From the NCBI RefSeq assembly GCF_000949295.1, contig NZ_JXYS01000081.1:1-54697 (forward strand): a stretch of 54,697 bases of DNA, read 5' to 3'. Positions 1 to 54,697 of the stretch are shown here, piece by piece. Within the stretch, counting starts at the first letter, position 1, and each line of letters begins with the position of its first letter. Source of the DNA: Acidithrix ferrooxidans (GTDB lineage: Bacteria; Actinomycetota; Acidimicrobiia; Acidimicrobiales; Acidimicrobiaceae). The position numbers and the translations under genes were made by a program. A model generated the notes under the pieces. That model was not told where the DNA came from. It worked only from the letters and a program-made list of their open reading frames with translations, and did not search any database.

Positions 1-629
1 GTTCTATCCAACGCCTGGATCTGTGTCTTTTCGTCAATACATAGTACCAGTGCAGCATCAGGGGGATTGAGATAGATCCCAGTTATGTCGCGGACCTTTT
101 CGGTAAAGGCCGGATCGGTACTGATGTTGAAGTATCCCAAGACATGGGGCTTGAGGCCAAAGGTTCTCCAGATACGTGAGATGCTCGCTGGTGATACCCC
201 GATCCGCTTGGACATTGAAGACGTCGACCACTGGGTAGCAAGCGGGGGCTCTTCTTCCAAAGTGATCCTTAGAATCTCGGCGATCTTTTCGTCATCAATG
301 CTTCTCGGTTTTCCACTTCTCGGTGCGTCATCGAGAAGTTCCACTCCGTAGTTGATAAAACGCCGCTTCCATTTGCATACCGTCTCTGTAGATATCTGAA
401 GTCTTTGCGCGATCTCGTTGGTTCCAACCCCTTCGTTACTCCATAGGGCAATGCTGGCCCTTGCCACCTGTCCTATGGGAGCTGTGGACTTTCTTACCAC
501 TGCTTCTAATTCGCTACGTTCTTTGGGACTGAGCGGAACCACCGAAGCTTGTCGTCCAGATCTCTTCTTGGGCGGCTTGCTCTGGTTGGCATCAATGTTT
601 GGCTCCTCTGAGACGGTGTGACTTTGCAT
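1..629 (-). mobile_element. IS630-family transposase, 3' end cut by the window edge
   Basis: Reading the minus strand from an ATG at 627-629 gives 209 open codons that run off base 1. The protein begins [10 protein letters not shown] and has a helix-turn-helix region (about residues 55-110, with [10 protein letters not shown] and TVCKWKRRF). A second region contains [18 protein letters not shown], and the visible part ends in [13 protein letters not shown] (residues 197-209). That last motif carries the first catalytic Asp (D199) of the IS630/Tc1 DDE nuclease. The remaining DDE residues lie outside the window. A purine-rich RBS (AAGGGAG) sits just upstream of the ATG. The right end of the element should lie between about 640 and 708, but I could not identify the terminal repeat because its partner is missing. 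Family assignment is firm; whether the copy is intact cannot be seen. Confidence 0.9.
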
Positions 630-708
630 CGTTCTCCCTTGCAAGGTTATGTCCTTACCAAGGAGAACAACCTTACGAAGGGATTAATTCCTCAGTTTCA
701 GGGAAATT

Positions 709-4866: not shown

Positions 4867-6042
4867 ATGATCCAAAATCCACTTGATATCGTTCAGCTCT
4901 TGGCCGGCGATTCAAAGGTGCGCGAGAATCCTTTTCCAATCTACGACATGGCCCGTTCGATGGGAGAGGTAATCCCTGTAATGGAACGGTTTTACTTAGC
5001 TACTTCATTTTTTGCATGCGATAGCGTGCTTCGTAACCATAGCTTTGGCAAGCGAGCAGATTCGATAGAACAGGCACGACCTCTAATCTTTGATTCCAAG
5101 TATCCGCCGTCGATGCTCTTTCAGGATCCGCCGAACCACACCAGATTAAGGCGATCGGTCACGACGTTTTTCACACCCTCAAAGATCTCTGGTCTAGAGC
5201 CATTGATTCGTGAAACTACTAGGAGCGCCTTATCGTCAATGGTCAAAGATGGAGGAGGAGATATCGTCTCAAAGGTGGCTCTAGAGATACCGATTTCTGT
5301 GATTTCAGCGATGTTGGGGGTCGATAGAGGTGAGCGGTCGAACTTGGCCCAAGAGGTCGCCATCGTTGCAGCCAGTTTGGATATCGGAGAGCGCGTTCGA
5401 CAAGGTGACCGCCAAGAGCTAATTGATGCTGGAAGTAACCTGTTGTCTTTTTTTGATGAGCTTATTCAATCTGACCTAGAAAAGACCAGATTGCTTACAT
5501 CCCTAATGGAAGGCGATAGTCCTCTTGATGGTAAAGAGACCGCCGTAATGGCACTTTTGCTCTTCATGGCAGGATTTGAAACTACCGCCAATCTCCTTTC
5601 AAGCATGGCCTATCGCCTGGGTACCGATGATGAGGTGTATTCGAAAGTAGGGGGTTTTAACGACCTTTTGCCAAGGGCGGTAGACGAATTTTTGCGTCTC
5701 GACTCTCCGGTTCAACTAGACGGTAGGGTGGTTCAATCTGAGGTGACGATCGCCGGCGTCGAATTAGAGGTTGGAAGTTTTATCCTGACGTTGCTAGGTG
5801 GGGCAAATCGAGATCCATCCGTCTTTGAAGATCCGAACGCTTTTAGGCTAGATCGGTCGAATTCCTCGCTTATCTCCTTTGGTGCTGGTATCCATCATTG
5901 TGTTGGTGCGACACTTGCTCGACGTGAGGGTGCGATCTTTTTAGAGGAGTTACTGAAATTGCCGACTTATGAGGTGGTTTCGGCTAAGGCGAAGAGCTCG
6001 TTGACCCTGCGAGGTTTCGAATCCATAGAAGTAAAGTTTTAA
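4867..6042 (+). CDS. Cytochrome P450
   Basis: The 391-residue soluble bacterial-type P450 has no membrane anchor. It shows the I-helix oxygen-activation motif AGFETT (residues 235-240), the K-helix ExxR as E274-F-L-R277, and the heme-ligand loop SFGAGIHHCVGATLAR with the cysteine thiolate at C345. These are all the residues needed for monooxygenase activity. Substrate cannot be deduced, and no ferredoxin or ferredoxin reductase gene is adjacent. The start at 4867 gives a normal N-terminus (NPFPIYDMARSMGEV). A photolyase gene follows 148 bp downstream on the same strand. A P450-photolyase pairing recalls the light-induced carotenoid/photolyase loci of Thermus, but that parallel is only suggestive. 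Confidence 0.95.
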   Translation: MIQNPLDIVQLLAGDSKVRENPFPIYDMARSMGEVIPVMERFYLATSFFACDSVLRNHSFGKRADSIEQARPLIFDSKYPPSMLFQDPPNHTRLRRSVTTFFTPSKISGLEPLIRETTRSALSSMVKDGGGDIVSKVALEIPISVISAMLGVDRGERSNLAQEVAIVAASLDIGERVRQGDRQELIDAGSNLLSFFDELIQSDLEKTRLLTSLMEGDSPLDGKETAVMALLLFMAGFETTANLLSSMAYRLGTDDEVYSKVGGFNDLLPRAVDEFLRLDSPVQLDGRVVQSEVTIAGVELEVGSFILTLLGGANRDPSVFEDPNAFRLDRSNSSLISFGAGIHHCVGATLARREGAIFLEELLKLPTYEVVSAKAKSSLTLRGFESIEVKF

Positions 6043-6190
6043 CAAGATAGTTATCAACCACTAAACCTTGACCGTGGCTTCGAAAAGGCGCGATGCTAAG
6101 GTCAATTCGTACGATCAAAGTTGAATTTGAGTATTGGAACTTTCCAGTGCCTCGTGGTGAGCCTGACAAGATTAACAGAAAGTTCACTGG

Positions 6191-7600
6191 ATGCAAAAGG
6201 TGATTGTCTGGCTAAGGCGAGACTTGAGATTGAGCGATAACCGAGCCATGGCGGCGGCTTTGTCGCTACCTGATGCGGTTGTCTACCCCTATTTTGTTTT
6301 TTCACCCAAGTTGTTAGAGAAGACCTCTCCTGTTCGTTCGTCTTATTTGGCTGGTGTGGTCAGGGACCTCGATGGAGATCTCGATGGTCGACTCAATTTG
6401 GATTGGGGCGATCCTGTTGGGTCACTCGTCTCTTTCGCGCTTGAGATTGGCGCCACAAAGGTCTATGCAACTAAAGAGTTCTCGCCGCTAGGACGGACGC
6501 GCGATGAAGCTGTTGGACTGAAGCTCAGGTTAAATGGTATTCAATTTTTACTAGGAGATTCGCCATATTTGATCTCACCCGGAAAGATCAATCGTCAGAG
6601 TGGTGGATGGTACAAGGTGTTTACTCCCTATTACCGTGCTGCGTTGTCCCATGGATTCGAACTTCCTTTCGATATTCGATTTGATCCAAATAGGTTCTCA
6701 AACCGAGTTCTCTTTCATCGCCAGGCTGAGGCATACCTTGAAGGTTCCGATTGCTTTGATAGGAAGCGGTTCCCTACCAAAGCTTCATTTGTGTTGGAGG
6801 CCTTTTCGACCTTTGTGGAGGAAAAATTAAGTCACTACAGCATTGGTCGCAATAGTCCATCGACCGAGAATACCTCCGTCGTTTCACCAGCTCTTCGCTT
6901 TGGAGTGGTACATCCCCGCCAACTCGCGTACTTGGCCTCTGGCCAGGAGGGTGGCTCTGACTATATTCGCGAGCTTTTTTGGCGAGATTTTTACGCCCAG
7001 GTCTTGTTGAACAATCCAGAGAGCGCATGGAAGAACCTTAATGAACAGTTTGATCAACTTGTTTATGATGAAATAGACGAGGCAACGACGCGCTCGCGCT
7101 TGCAAGCATGGAAATTAGGGCTTACCGGATATCCCATTGTCGATGCCGGCATGCGTCAGCTGCTTGCGACGGGCTGGATGCACAATAGGTCAAGAATGAT
7201 CACTGCGTCGTTTTTGATCAAGGATCTGCACGTTCCATGGCAGGTTGGTGCCCGCTACTTTATGGAGCATCTCATTGATGGAGATTTGGCCTCGAATAAC
7301 CACTCTTGGCAGTGGGTGGCTGGTTCGGGTACAGATGCAGCCCCCTATTTTCGAATCTTCAATCCCGTGCTTCAATCTAAAAAGTTTGATCCCAACGGAG
7401 ACTATATAAAAACATGGGTCAAGGAGTTGGCGGAGATCCCGAGCCGATTTGTGCACGATCCCTCTGAAGCCAAGCGTCTCGGTCTTATTGGGGAAGCCTC
7501 TTATCCGTCGCCGATCGTTGATCACGCCTTAGAGAGGCAAATAACACTGGAGCGTTACGAGGCGATGAAGGTCGTTACCGCTTCGAACTCTGATGAATAG
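6191..7600 (+). CDS. phr: Deoxyribodipyrimidine photolyase (cryptochrome/photolyase family)
   Basis: The 469-residue protein starts with the antenna-domain motif VIVWLRRDLRLSDNRA. It carries the FAD-binding C-terminal half with IRELFWRDFYAQVL, GYPIVDAGMRQLLATGWMHN, RMITASFLIKDL and DLASNNHSWQWVAGSGTDAA. These match class I CPD photolyases, as does the length (about 470). The enzyme uses near-UV/blue light and reduced FAD to split cyclobutane pyrimidine dimers. A 6-4 photolyase or cryptochrome role is less likely but cannot be excluded without alignment. It lies just downstream of the P450 gene on the same strand. No terminator is obvious after it, and decayed DNA follows. Confidence 0.95.
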   Translation: MQKVIVWLRRDLRLSDNRAMAAALSLPDAVVYPYFVFSPKLLEKTSPVRSSYLAGVVRDLDGDLDGRLNLDWGDPVGSLVSFALEIGATKVYATKEFSPLGRTRDEAVGLKLRLNGIQFLLGDSPYLISPGKINRQSGGWYKVFTPYYRAALSHGFELPFDIRFDPNRFSNRVLFHRQAEAYLEGSDCFDRKRFPTKASFVLEAFSTFVEEKLSHYSIGRNSPSTENTSVVSPALRFGVVHPRQLAYLASGQEGGSDYIRELFWRDFYAQVLLNNPESAWKNLNEQFDQLVYDEIDEATTRSRLQAWKLGLTGYPIVDAGMRQLLATGWMHNRSRMITASFLIKDLHVPWQVGARYFMEHLIDGDLASNNHSWQWVAGSGTDAAPYFRIFNPVLQSKKFDPNGDYIKTWVKELAEIPSRFVHDPSEAKRLGLIGEASYPSPIVDHALERQITLERYEAMKVVTASNSDE

Positions 7601-48488: not shown

Positions 48489-48526
48489 CTCCAAAGATCC
48501 CAAGGCGGGATCTTTGGAGTATTTTT
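48489..48526 (+). terminator. Strong terminator after ppdK
   Basis: CTCCAAAGATCCC (48489-48501), loop AAGGC, GGGATCTTTGGAG (48507-48519), then TATTTTT. The 13-bp stem is perfect. It lies between ppdK and the converging B12-binding regulator gene and could serve both. A weaker dyad AATCCC / GGGATT lies upstream at about 48421-48446. Confidence 0.85.
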
Positions 48527-48671: not shown

Positions 48672-49478
48672 TTACTGTGCGATGGAGTCAATATCGACTT
48701 CGCCATGTGCGCTTTGAATAGTTTGGATGAGTTCCGATACGCTTGATCCCATCCCTCCTACTATCGTCCGGAAGCCGTTTTCCTCGAGGAGTTCTTTTGT
48801 AATTAGGGCCGATGGTCTTGCTTTTGGATTTGTTACAGACAGTACAACAAAGTCCGGCTTGTCGGTTTTGGCAAAATCGACTAAATCTTGCATTGGTACC
48901 TGTGAACCAAGGTGTTGAACGAGCCAGTGGTGAAAACGGAGAGAGGCGGTCGCCATCATAGAGGGTAATTCATGTTCGTCTCCCACGGGTGTGGTTACTA
49001 CTACTTTACCGTGCGGTCGTCCTCGTCGTTGATATGATGCGGTCTCTAGAATATGGCAGCAAATCCTACTTGCCCTGTGCTCTACGGCGACTGAAAGGCA
49101 GCCCGTAGTCCATTCTTGGCCAATTTCATATAGAGCAGGAGCCATCATCTTTTCGATTGCCTCTACGATATCGAGCCCTCCAACCAACAGTCTCTCAAAC
49201 TGATCTTTGGCATTTGAAGCGCTACCTGTGATCAGGTTGGTGTAGAAGTGTTGAGATAGGACTTCCCAATCTCGAACTTTTGTAACCTCGGGCGGTGGGA
49301 TTGGAGAATATCGAGCGTCTCTGAATGCCGCTAGGTCGCTTTTGTGAACTCGATAGCGAGTCCCTACCTTCTCCGCCTTGAGGACGCCTTCTCGAATCCA
49401 ACGGTAAGCCGTCTGGTAATGCACACCTAATATCTCTGCTGCATCCGCCAATTCAACGTATTGCGTCATCACATTCAA
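48672..49478 (-). CDS. CarH/LitR-like B12-binding regulator with an excisionase-type HTH
   Basis: The 268-residue protein has an HTH_17 domain at about 8-52 (ELADAAEILGVHYQTAYRWI then REGVLKAEK). A four-helix B12-cap domain at about 72-150 contains W123-x9-E133-H134, the W-x9-EH motif that holds the adenosyl group in CarH photoreceptors. A cobalamin-binding Rossmann domain from about 157 carries D167-E-H169-E-L-P, matching DxHxxG with Pro for Gly. H169 would be the lower axial cobalt ligand. CarH-type proteins repress in the dark and release DNA when light breaks the Co-C bond. The typical CarH has a MerR-type HTH; this one is closer to BldC/excisionase domains. Start ATG 49478 or 49469; no strong RBS. 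Confidence 0.88.
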   Translation of the reverse strand: MNVMTQYVELADAAEILGVHYQTAYRWIREGVLKAEKVGTRYRVHKSDLAAFRDARYSPIPPPEVTKVRDWEVLSQHFYTNLITGSASNAKDQFERLLVGGLDIVEAIEKMMAPALYEIGQEWTTGCLSVAVEHRASRICCHILETASYQRRGRPHGKVVVTTPVGDEHELPSMMATASLRFHHWLVQHLGSQVPMQDLVDFAKTDKPDFVVLSVTNPKARPSALITKELLEENGFRTIVGGMGSSVSELIQTIQSAHGEVDIDSIAQ

Positions 49479-50224
49479 TTCTACTTTTCAAATGAGTTTT
49501 CGCCATGACCTCAAAGTTCATTTGCAGCCATACGACTTTTGATCTTCAGGATGAATACATCAAAATAAAGATCCATTTTTTGTACTGGGTCCTCATCAAT
49601 GATCGCCCTTATTGTCCTAGTCGTCGGCAGTAAAGTTCGATCTAGGTAGGTTAACTTTTGCTGCTGTTTCAAACTATGGAGTTAATTTTACAAAATTATA
49701 ACTATAAAAATAGCCAGATTACAGCGTTAGTTGTGACGCAAAGTGAAATTTCTGAATTTTATCTGAATTCGATGGGGTCCGCTTCCAATCTCTTGCTTTG
49801 ATCGGATTTGAACGCTGCGTCGGCTTCGAAGTTGAAGAGGTCTTATTCTTGGTTTTTGGATTTATAAAACAGTTTTATTTCCTTGGCGTAGACCTCCAAT
49901 CGATAGCCGAGTGTTCTTTGTAGTCCAAGTTGCTTGCCTACTATTTTGTGCGGTATCTGGAATTGATAGATGCGACAATGGGGTCGAATGTCACAGCTAT
50001 TTTATGAGTGATGATAACTTCAATGCCTTTCGCATAGACTCATCGGTGTGAGCTAGATTTTGTTTATAAGGTACAAAAGTGTGCCAAGTCACATGGCTTG
50101 TGCTCGTATCGTGTCGTATTCATCTTTGTGTGGACCTTTAAAATAGAGTTGCTCCCCTTGTCTGCGGTAGGTGATTTTCTTTGTGCGACTGGGCGTCAAC
50201 CTGATCTCTTGAAAGCGGTTTTTA
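49479..50224. other. Gap of about 750 bp with no gene recognised
   Basis: It separates the divergent B12-binding regulator and dnaG and should contain their promoters. It is AT-rich in the middle (49680-49800). I see no coding signal or strong dyad. Confidence 0.45.
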
Positions 50225-54105: not shown

Positions 54106-54697
54106 GTGCGTCATGAATGAAAGAGGTTGTAAATCATGTAGAAGCTGATAACAATCACACTGCAATGCTACATAGATGATGGAGGTAGGCCCTCCGGGAT
54201 CGCCTTTTGGGAGGAGATTCCAAACCACCGTACGGGGCATTAGCTAAAGACTGTTGTCCAAAGCGGTACTAAAAAAGTTAGAGCAATGACTCTTTCAGGT
54301 ATGAGTTAAGAAGACGAGTGAAAACAAACCACTGACGAAGCGTTCGAAATTGGTATGGATGATGTCGAAACCGAGGGACGTCGAACTTTCGGGACAACTT
54401 GGAGACTAACCCAATTAGTGCTCCCCTTGGCTATATGGGGGCATCCGGCGTGTAGGTGGCGTGAGCTTAACATCAGGCGTTTATGTGGAACATGAGAACC
54501 CAGTCCTAGACGTTCTTGGCTAAGCCCACATGGGCTAAGCCCAAAGATGAGGAAAAACCTACAAGTTGCAGATCAACAAGAGGGAAAGTACCAAATGCCT
54601 ATGGATTGGGGGCGGACCATCCCGTAGTAGCTACGAAGTCCTTGTAATGAGGATGTAAGCCAAAGAGATGGAGTAAACAGCAGATCTAGTTGTAATT
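54106..54697 (+). mobile_element. Group II intron, 5' part (domain I onward), cut by the window end
   Basis: It starts GTGCG, matching the 5' consensus GUGYG, exactly where the phosphatase similarity stops. About 590 nt of structured noncoding sequence follow, with segments of the kind seen before ltrA-type maturase genes (GGACGTCGAACTTTCGGGAC around 54374, GGAGACTAACCCAATTAGTG, GGAACATGAGAACCC, GTAGTAGCTACGAAGTCC). A candidate EBS1 GTCGAAA (54364-54370) can pair with the seven exon bases before the site (TTTCGGC, 54099-54105) with one G-U pair. The reverse transcriptase gene and 3' end are outside the window. Class is not assigned. Confidence 0.75.

Follow-up and report, generated by a model that had tools for sequence, protein, structure and literature searches.

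An excisionase-headed, CarH-like B12 photoreceptor candidate of Acidithrix ferrooxidans and its actinobacterial family, linked to rhodopsin genes and 10-bp TTAG arrays

The window examined here is a stretch of 54,697 nucleotides from Acidithrix ferrooxidans (contig NZ_JXYS01000081.1). Between dnaG and ppdK, on the minus strand, it carries a gene for a regulator, P0001, in which a small DNA-binding head is joined to a two-part cobalamin domain. The features of the locus are as follows, with TtCarH (CarH of Thermus thermophilus) as the reference for aligned residues.

48672..49469, minus strand: coding sequence of the HTH_17-B12 regulator P0001, 265 aa, with ATG at 49469
49311..49451, minus strand: HTH_17/excisionase-type winged helix-turn-helix, residues 7-53 (PF12728, TIGR01764)
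49044..49247, minus strand: four-helix B12-binding_2 domain, residues 75-142 (PF02607, 35.7 bits, cut-off 23)
49110..49112, minus strand: Trp120 of GxxW, aligned with TtCarH W131
49077..49082, minus strand: Glu130-His131, the EH motif, aligned with TtCarH E141-H142
48738..49010, minus strand: Rossmann-type B12-binding domain, residues 154-244 (PF02310, 42.1 bits, cut-off 32.1)
48972..48983, minus strand: Gly163-Asp-Glu-His166, GxxH, with His166 at the lower axial ligand position (TtCarH H177)
48963..48965, minus strand: Pro169, where TtCarH has Gly180 in the alignment
48894..48908, minus strand: Gly188-x3-Pro192, GxxxP, placed by alignment and the published motif
49470..50224, minus strand: upstream region as far as dnaG, with no TTAG array above shuffles
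48489..48519, no strand assigned: terminator-like hairpin of 13 pairs, between the regulator gene and the convergent ppdK

The open reading frame at 48672-49478 on the minus strand had been taken, from its letters alone, for a B12 photoreceptor-type regulator, and the reading frame, the Pfam domains and the signature residues all agreed with this assignment. The 268-aa frame begins at a TTG three codons before the ATG at 49469. We preferred the ATG because alignments of relatives begin near it and fit it better. With this start, the residues previously numbered W123, E133, H134 and H169 become W120, E130, H131 and H166. Hairpin sites numbered three across the window, compared with a shuffle mean of 1.7. 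The A. ferrooxidans genome contains a single copy of this type of regulator, the second match to P0001 (E 3.9e-4) being a long methionine synthase-like frame. Close to the contig end, positions 54181-54300 matched a group II intron domain (RF01999, 76.7 bits). An identical transposase-like protein stretch was found at one end of contigs C81 (window 3-644) and C67 (L115:1-618), and since these ends share it, the assembly was probably broken by a repeated insertion sequence.

The head of P0001 matched HTH_17 (PF12728) of Pfam with 53.1 bits (E 3.9e-14, cut-off 27), and the excisionase model TIGR01764 of NCBIfam was passed as well (46.6 bits, cut-off 28.8). The Pfam models MerR (19.9 versus 28.2 bits) and MerR_1 (14.3 versus 21.6 bits) both stayed under their cut-offs, confirming the view of the sequence-only reading that the head is of the HTH_17 type instead of the MerR type. 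The modelled head consists of helices 7-14, 18-27 and 43-53 and strands 33-35 and 38-42, and its second helix contains HYQTAYRWIR. When the head profile was compared with PDB sequences, RacA (E 0.0015) and Gp37 (0.0068) were the best matches, and no BldC chain was matched.

We then examined the sensor part, in which Pfam found no domain beyond B12-binding_2 and B12-binding, and no bilin-binding domain, so that these two and HTH_17 are the only domains matched in the 265 aa. Light-responsive cobalamin domains have been defined by four motifs, GxxW, EH, GxxH and GxxxP, in the accessible part of the SignatureFinder paper (PMC11796333), and P0001 has all four, as GQEW, EH, GDEH and GSQVP. Over 81 aligned rows, comprising the window protein and the best 80 of the 343 related loci described below, the axial His was present in 81, the Trp in 79, the Glu in 78, the His of EH in 76 and the Gly of GxxH in 77. 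The full GxxW-x9-EH was absent in five of the 80 loci (L054, L073, L078, L088 and L109). Because these pocket residues are nearly invariant, they are not there by chance in P0001, and the W-x9-EH motif and axial His reported earlier correspond to W120, E130-H131 and H166. The replacement of Gly by Pro in the DxHxxG motif was equally real, as P169 against Gly180; Pro occupies this position in 71 of the same 81 rows, and it is therefore the norm of the family and no oddity of P0001. In the alignment to the photocobilin SaPCob, H166 is matched by a His and P169 by a Pro. The available text of PMC11796333 describes SaPCob as an AdoCbl-binding protein with a green-light response. Pro169 is thus compatible with B12 photochemistry, and we rejected the Gly-to-Pro change as a mark of lost function.

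An AlphaFold model of P0001, built from 18 aligned sequences (mean pLDDT 94.2), has the fold of solved photoactive B12 domains by Z scores and in the Foldseek list. The closest sensor folds were those of photocobilins, SaPCob (8j2w/8j2x; for 8j2x Z 24.2, rmsd 1.6 over 191 residues) and AbPCob (8j2y; Z 23.6), followed by CtMerR of Chloracidobacterium thermophilum (8jbs/8jbt; Z 20.6) and the TtCarH domain (Z about 18). Photocobilins differ in having a bilin-binding domain, as the same partly accessible paper describes (PMC11796333). CtMerR shares the four motifs and is light-responsive, whereas its head is reported there to be of the MerR family and its aligned sensor is only 22% identical to that of P0001. 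With CarH and LitR, P0001 shares the two-part cobalamin domain and the W, E, H and axial His of the AdoCbl pocket, but their head is of the MerR type. On the NCBIfam model TransRegCarH it scored 72.3 bits, far under the cut-off of 400, although this was still its best NCBIfam match. From these residues and this fold we infer that P0001 binds B12 and responds to light.

To place P0001 in a family, relatives were sought in named genomes with a single HTH pattern, G[VI]HY[QM]T[AV]Y. This gave 365 stretches, of which 343 were confirmed as relatives. The locus counts given below refer to the best 80 of these 343, ranked by likeness to the window protein; all 80 are actinobacterial by title, and they include near-identical members (L099/L100/L107/L108 and L064/L066). 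Within the order, homologues at E <=1e-15 were found in 49 of 198 genomes, A. ferrooxidans included. For L107 and L108, titled Bifidobacterium breve, the regulators and neighbours closely resemble those of Actinobacteria bacterium IMCC26207 (L099), and these Bifidobacterium labels are probably wrong.

In a maximum likelihood tree, run in quick mode with SH-aLRT support only and with TtCarH as a very long outgroup branch, the window protein joined L035 and L036 (support 100). It fell in an 11-row group together with Ferrithrix (84), which was nested in a 17-row group (80, weak) whose members nearly all adjoin dnaG, ppdK or glyS. The rhodopsin-linked members formed a separate 45-row group (98), and ten YGWVRQG-like rows a third one (99). 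The window arrangement next to dnaG was found in 14 of the 80 loci.

Clustering of neighbouring genes revealed a seven-helix-like protein adjoining the regulator, which proved to be Bac_rhodopsin in all three members scanned with Pfam (8.5e-42, 2.7e-39 and 2e-40). By tblastn, rhodopsin was present in 19 of the best 80 of the 343 loci, in 18 of them immediately divergent from the regulator; the one non-divergent rhodopsin, in L059, lies at +1733. One of the rhodopsin-linked regulators is that of Nocardioides sp. Soil774 (L076). Those of L104 and L113 are distant (31-32% to references). For comparison, rhodopsin occurs in 22 of the 198 genomes of the order (21 above cut-off). The adjacency in 19 of 80 loci is far above the expectation from rhodopsin frequency, though the 19 are mutually related. 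Other linked genes in the same 80 loci were a whiB-like gene (7), lycopene cyclase (4) and photolyase (3, one a partial match). Phytoene synthase and desaturase were both matched in L097, and in L089 desaturase was matched weakly. Because the gene finder is crude in high-GC DNA, all neighbour counts are lower bounds.

Two further kinds of neighbour were noticed. In L110, L111 and L114, regulators of the YMTAYRYVR type directly precede genes that include a relative of the impB/mucB-family polymerases and DNA polymerase III alpha, assigned by a domain scan in L111 only (PF00817 for impB/mucB) and by cluster in the others; this suggests light control of error-prone repair by that type. An HD-domain-type gene adjoins the regulator in L040, L043 and L044, with Pfam run on L040 only.

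One prominent feature of the divergent intergenic regions was NTTAG repeated every 10 bp. The mean four-unit TTAG score of 18 rhodopsin loci was 12.7 out of 16 at period 10, while at periods 7-9 and 11-14 it ranged between 8.6 and 9.2, and ten of the 18 reached at least 13 (13 of them at least 12). Among 79 loci with 320 bp upstream, 21 regions scored at least 13 of 16 at period 10 and none did so at periods 7-9 or 11-15. In control sets of 50 random-window draws from the same loci and 50 dinucleotide shuffles, the mean was 0.06 and the maximum 1 in each. The exact pair TTAGN6TTAG occurred 39 times in 1,173,853 bp of locus DNA, 36 of them inside the 25,280 bp of upstream windows; of the remaining three, two lie in L038 and one in L090. 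The pair was present in 26 of the 79 upstream regions and in 10 of 19 rhodopsin-linked loci. Eighty units from 20 loci gave a consensus of roughly (T/A)TTAGY-N3-R. Rhodopsin-linked L086, L094, L097, L105 and L113 scored below 12 of 16 for four TTAG units, and L094, L097 and L105 hold partial repeats. Arrays were also present where rhodopsin was not found, in L071, L087 and L095, whose divergent neighbour is a whiB-like gene. The ten YGWVRQG-like rows have a short array, which runs on the opposite strand, with an exact two-unit match in eight of ten, and L059 has a second array (14/16) before its rhodopsin gene. Apart from these, L074:648 and L096:11613 carry a reverse-strand TTAG-like array before what appears, by eye, to be the same small membrane protein gene.

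CarH operators and these candidate arrays are both tandem direct repeats. In the accessible text of PMC9304148, CarH heads occupy direct repeats of 11 bp (nnnnTnnACAn) in darkness and come off them in the light; the arrays of the relatives differ in having NTTAG at 10 bp in place of TnnACA at 11 bp. The operator choice that was suggested might differ from that of CarH now has a candidate, found in the relatives, and the suggestion of a separate subfamily is upheld by the non-MerR head, the separate tree groups and the distinct repeat type.

Twelve whole genomes (about 50 Mb), mostly picked because they carry an array-bearing regulator, were scanned with a three-unit pattern allowing at most one mismatch. 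The 22 matches represented 12 distinct arrays, each of which is placed by its coordinates 40-70 bp upstream of a regulator gene of the P0001 family. Two of the 12 genomes gave no array, and a reversed control pattern gave 9 matches. The presence of arrays before regulators is partly due to the choice of genomes; their absence elsewhere in those genomes is not. In another genome (G174, contig 88), a perfect three-unit TTAGY array was seen about 60 bp before an HD_5-domain gene (L201:5797-5821); it may be a chance match, as the reversed control gave 4 matches in this genome.

Ferrithrix thermotolerans (G082; L041) is a member of the window's own group, and its regulator adjoins dnaG as in the window. 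Its genome contains two three-unit arrays, whereas the reversed control gave none. One is perfect (C44:89455-89479) and is found 109 bp upstream of a rhodopsin gene, after which comes the beta-carotene dioxygenase gene blh (PF15461); the other, with one mismatch (C48:113970-113994), lies 169 bp before whiB (PF02467, 3.5e-22). The rhodopsin-blh pair is unlinked to the regulator gene, and rhodopsin and whiB, the genes after the two arrays, are the same ones that adjoin regulators in other relatives. We scored 20 of the 23 rhodopsin matches in the order (19 genomes), two of them with only 165 and 126 bp of upstream sequence. Ferrithrix scored 22.0 and the others from -3.6 to 8.1, except G160 at 15.6, a genome in which no regulator was detected. 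No array was found before rhodopsin in four genomes in which the best regulator belongs to the YMTAYRYVR type (G053, G064, G155 and G161), nor in G132 and G167.

On the basis of these results, P0001 is probably an AdoCbl-based repressor relieved by light, which controls retinal and carotenoid genes and acts in trans in the window's group. AdoCbl would serve as a light-labile co-repressor. In the dark, it would sit with Trp120 and Glu130-His131 of the helical bundle on one side and the axial His166 of the Rossmann domain on the other and keep the sensors assembled, so that several HTH_17 heads could lie head to tail on direct promoter repeats and repress transcription. In the light, the Co-C bond would break, the assembly loosen and the heads leave, allowing transcription of the target. 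As candidate operator, the relatives have about 2-6 direct NTTAGYNNNN repeats, which recur with each helical turn (10 bp) and separate the regulator gene from a divergent neighbour, be it rhodopsin, whiB or another gene. The regulators of the window's group stand beside dnaG or ppdK and apart from their putative targets, and action in trans would reach the rhodopsin-blh pair and whiB in Ferrithrix. No rhodopsin was found in the A. ferrooxidans genome, and the target there may be the carotenoid operon (GGPP synthase-crtI-crtB). With the PduO-type adenosyltransferase that its genome encodes, the organism can probably convert cobalamin to AdoCbl.

Whether such targets could be recognized in A. 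ferrooxidans itself was determined by array scans of the window and genome. In the promoter of the window gene, neither TTAG nor any other four-letter word formed an array with a 9-11-bp period that exceeded shuffles, the exact two-unit TTAG repeat is absent upstream in all 13 listed relatives of the window's group, and comparison of the upstream regions of the window gene and L035 revealed nothing outside the coding start. At 4867-7600 the window also encodes a cytochrome P450 (PF00067) and, after it, a DNA photolyase (PF00875, PF03441), and such a pair adjoins carH in Thermus thermophilus (L032) as well, together with carotenoid genes. This likeness had suggested both genes as targets, but no array above shuffles was found before either of them or elsewhere in the window. 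The expectation of targets within the window, at the P450 and, as autoregulation, at the regulator's own promoter, was therefore not borne out, and the photolyase was dropped along with them. Genome-wide, TTAG arrays were not enriched over a reversed-pattern control (42 versus 93, 2 versus 6 and 21 versus 61), and we rejected a genome-wide TTAG regulon in this organism because the counts lay below the control. One-mismatch sites on C132 and C92, near an FMN-dependent dehydrogenase and other genes with no evident light theme, were taken as chance.

The pigment genes of A. ferrooxidans lie on contig C67, where GGPP synthase, crtI and crtB are opposed by lycopene cyclase and a hydroxylase-like gene. 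The best two-unit site in 20 kb of this contig, TTTAGTGATAATTATTCTGA, starts 172 bp before GGPP synthase, whose promoter region is C67 6930-7133, and it ranks in the top 1.3% of locus windows at two units and 6.5% at three. In the carotenoid regions of Ferrithrix and G080 the best site is likewise just before GGPP synthase. Three of eight regulator-bearing carotenoid loci were similar in this way and the other five had nothing near the top (combined p about 0.04), in a test that left out the crtB matches of G164 and a second G092 locus (L214) with only weak matches. The regulator-less genome G117 gave 23% and 41%, and a second such genome, G032, was left unscored. The site before the carotenoid operon is a hint only, marking that operon as a candidate target.

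These data bear on the possibility that the window copy has drifted to other targets, such as ppdK/dnaG or another regulon, and no longer controls pigment genes. The lack of arrays at its own promoter and in the window, the lack of excess in the genome and the conserved place beside dnaG (14 of 80 loci) would all fit such a drift. The second helix of the HTH is almost unchanged, however; Ferrithrix in the same group retains arrays at rhodopsin-blh and whiB, and the candidate site before the carotenoid operon also speaks for pigment control. We regard drift as possible, though on the doubtful side.

The head itself raises another alternative, in which P0001 would be an activator or an architectural protein like BldC or Xis, with arrays that nucleate filaments, B12 that tunes their length and a light effect that depends on the promoter. 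The head of P0001 is the same small type of winged HTH as in BldC and Xis, and the accessible part of PMC5859096 describes BldC multimers arranged head to tail on direct 9-bp repeats of variable number, much as the repeats of the relatives vary in number. The orientation of the array relative to the gene also differs between groups. On the other hand, BldC is a bare winged HTH with no effector domain, whereas P0001 is fused to a B12 sensor, and the BldC repeats, given as AATTxxxx(C), have a period of 9 bp and those of the relatives one of 10 bp. The distance of the 12 placed arrays from the gene start, 40-70 bp upstream in every case, is what a repressor site overlapping a promoter might show. 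We therefore consider this alternative unlikely.

Comparison with TtCarH showed where the sensors differ. His132 of TtCarH, the light-state ligand, which follows the Trp, corresponds to Thr121 in P0001; its equivalent was found in none of 16 rows of the dnaG/ppdK-linked group, in contrast to 15 of 19 rhodopsin-linked rows. Judged from these alignments, the two groups may not share the same light-state chemistry. In the accessible text of PMC10442372, most H132A TtCarH remains tetrameric after light, although earlier work in which H132A disassembled is cited there too. Gly192 of TtCarH, placed at the dimer-dimer contact in the same text, is His181 in P0001. Altered tetramer formation in P0001 is possible in view of the two replacements (His132 to Thr121 and Gly192 to His181). 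The partner of TtCarH Gly160 was Gly150 in one alignment and an Arg in the other, and we drew no inference from this position because the two disagree.

An alternative on the sensor side is a sensor of B12 level, which light would disturb only incidentally. The loss of the His132 equivalent in the window's group, a methionine synthase-like gene near an adenosyltransferase elsewhere in the genome and the absence of rhodopsin from A. ferrooxidans would favour it. The light signature of P0001 is nevertheless complete, relatives among the 80 loci adjoin rhodopsin, carotenoid and photolyase genes, and CtMerR is described as light-responsive in the available part of PMC11796333 though an Arg aligns with TtCarH His132. 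These points make sensing of B12 level alone quite unlikely. That the TTAG array binds another factor, for example a WhiB protein or a sigma factor, is very unlikely. In its favour, whiB-like genes occur in 7 of the 80 loci and one follows a Ferrithrix array, and binding of the array by the regulator is itself deduced from sequence. Against it, arrays precede the regulator in loci that gave no whiB match and, in the 12 selected genomes, in 12 of 12 three-unit cases; spacing by one helical turn suits a multimeric binder of direct repeats; and the sole strong case among the 20 rhodopsin regions is Ferrithrix, which has the regulator, compared with 15.6 in G160, where none was detected.

Returning to the light-relieved repressor, the family would consist of CarH-type sensors, set by light, that hold BldC-like heads on repeats of one helical turn. 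More broadly, we favour, if with some reserve, the proposal that excisionase-headed B12 photoreceptor repressors control actinobacterial rhodopsin phototrophy through a 10-bp TTAG operator and that the target of the window member has moved to unlinked pigment genes. On this proposal, green light sensed through B12 would turn on the rhodopsin pump as well as retinal/carotenoid synthesis. A search of the open literature by titles and opening lines of abstracts, with subscription papers and preprints outside its scope, yielded no paper on control of rhodopsin by a B12 photoreceptor in actinobacteria and none on the combination of HTH_17 with a B12 light sensor, and the accessible parts of PMC8591293 and PMC8582858 contained no link between rhodopsin and a B12 photoreceptor. 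The SignatureFinder paper, in its accessible part (PMC11796333), refers in general terms to fusions of light-responsive domains with HTH domains and gives 1561 clustered sequences, and members of the P0001 family may therefore sit unnamed in that network. If the proposal is true, it would tie B12 status and green light directly, at the molecular level, to rhodopsin phototrophy, and would supply an operator open to testing as well as a set of compact light switches that could serve as tools, with a head and repeat spacing unlike those of CarH.
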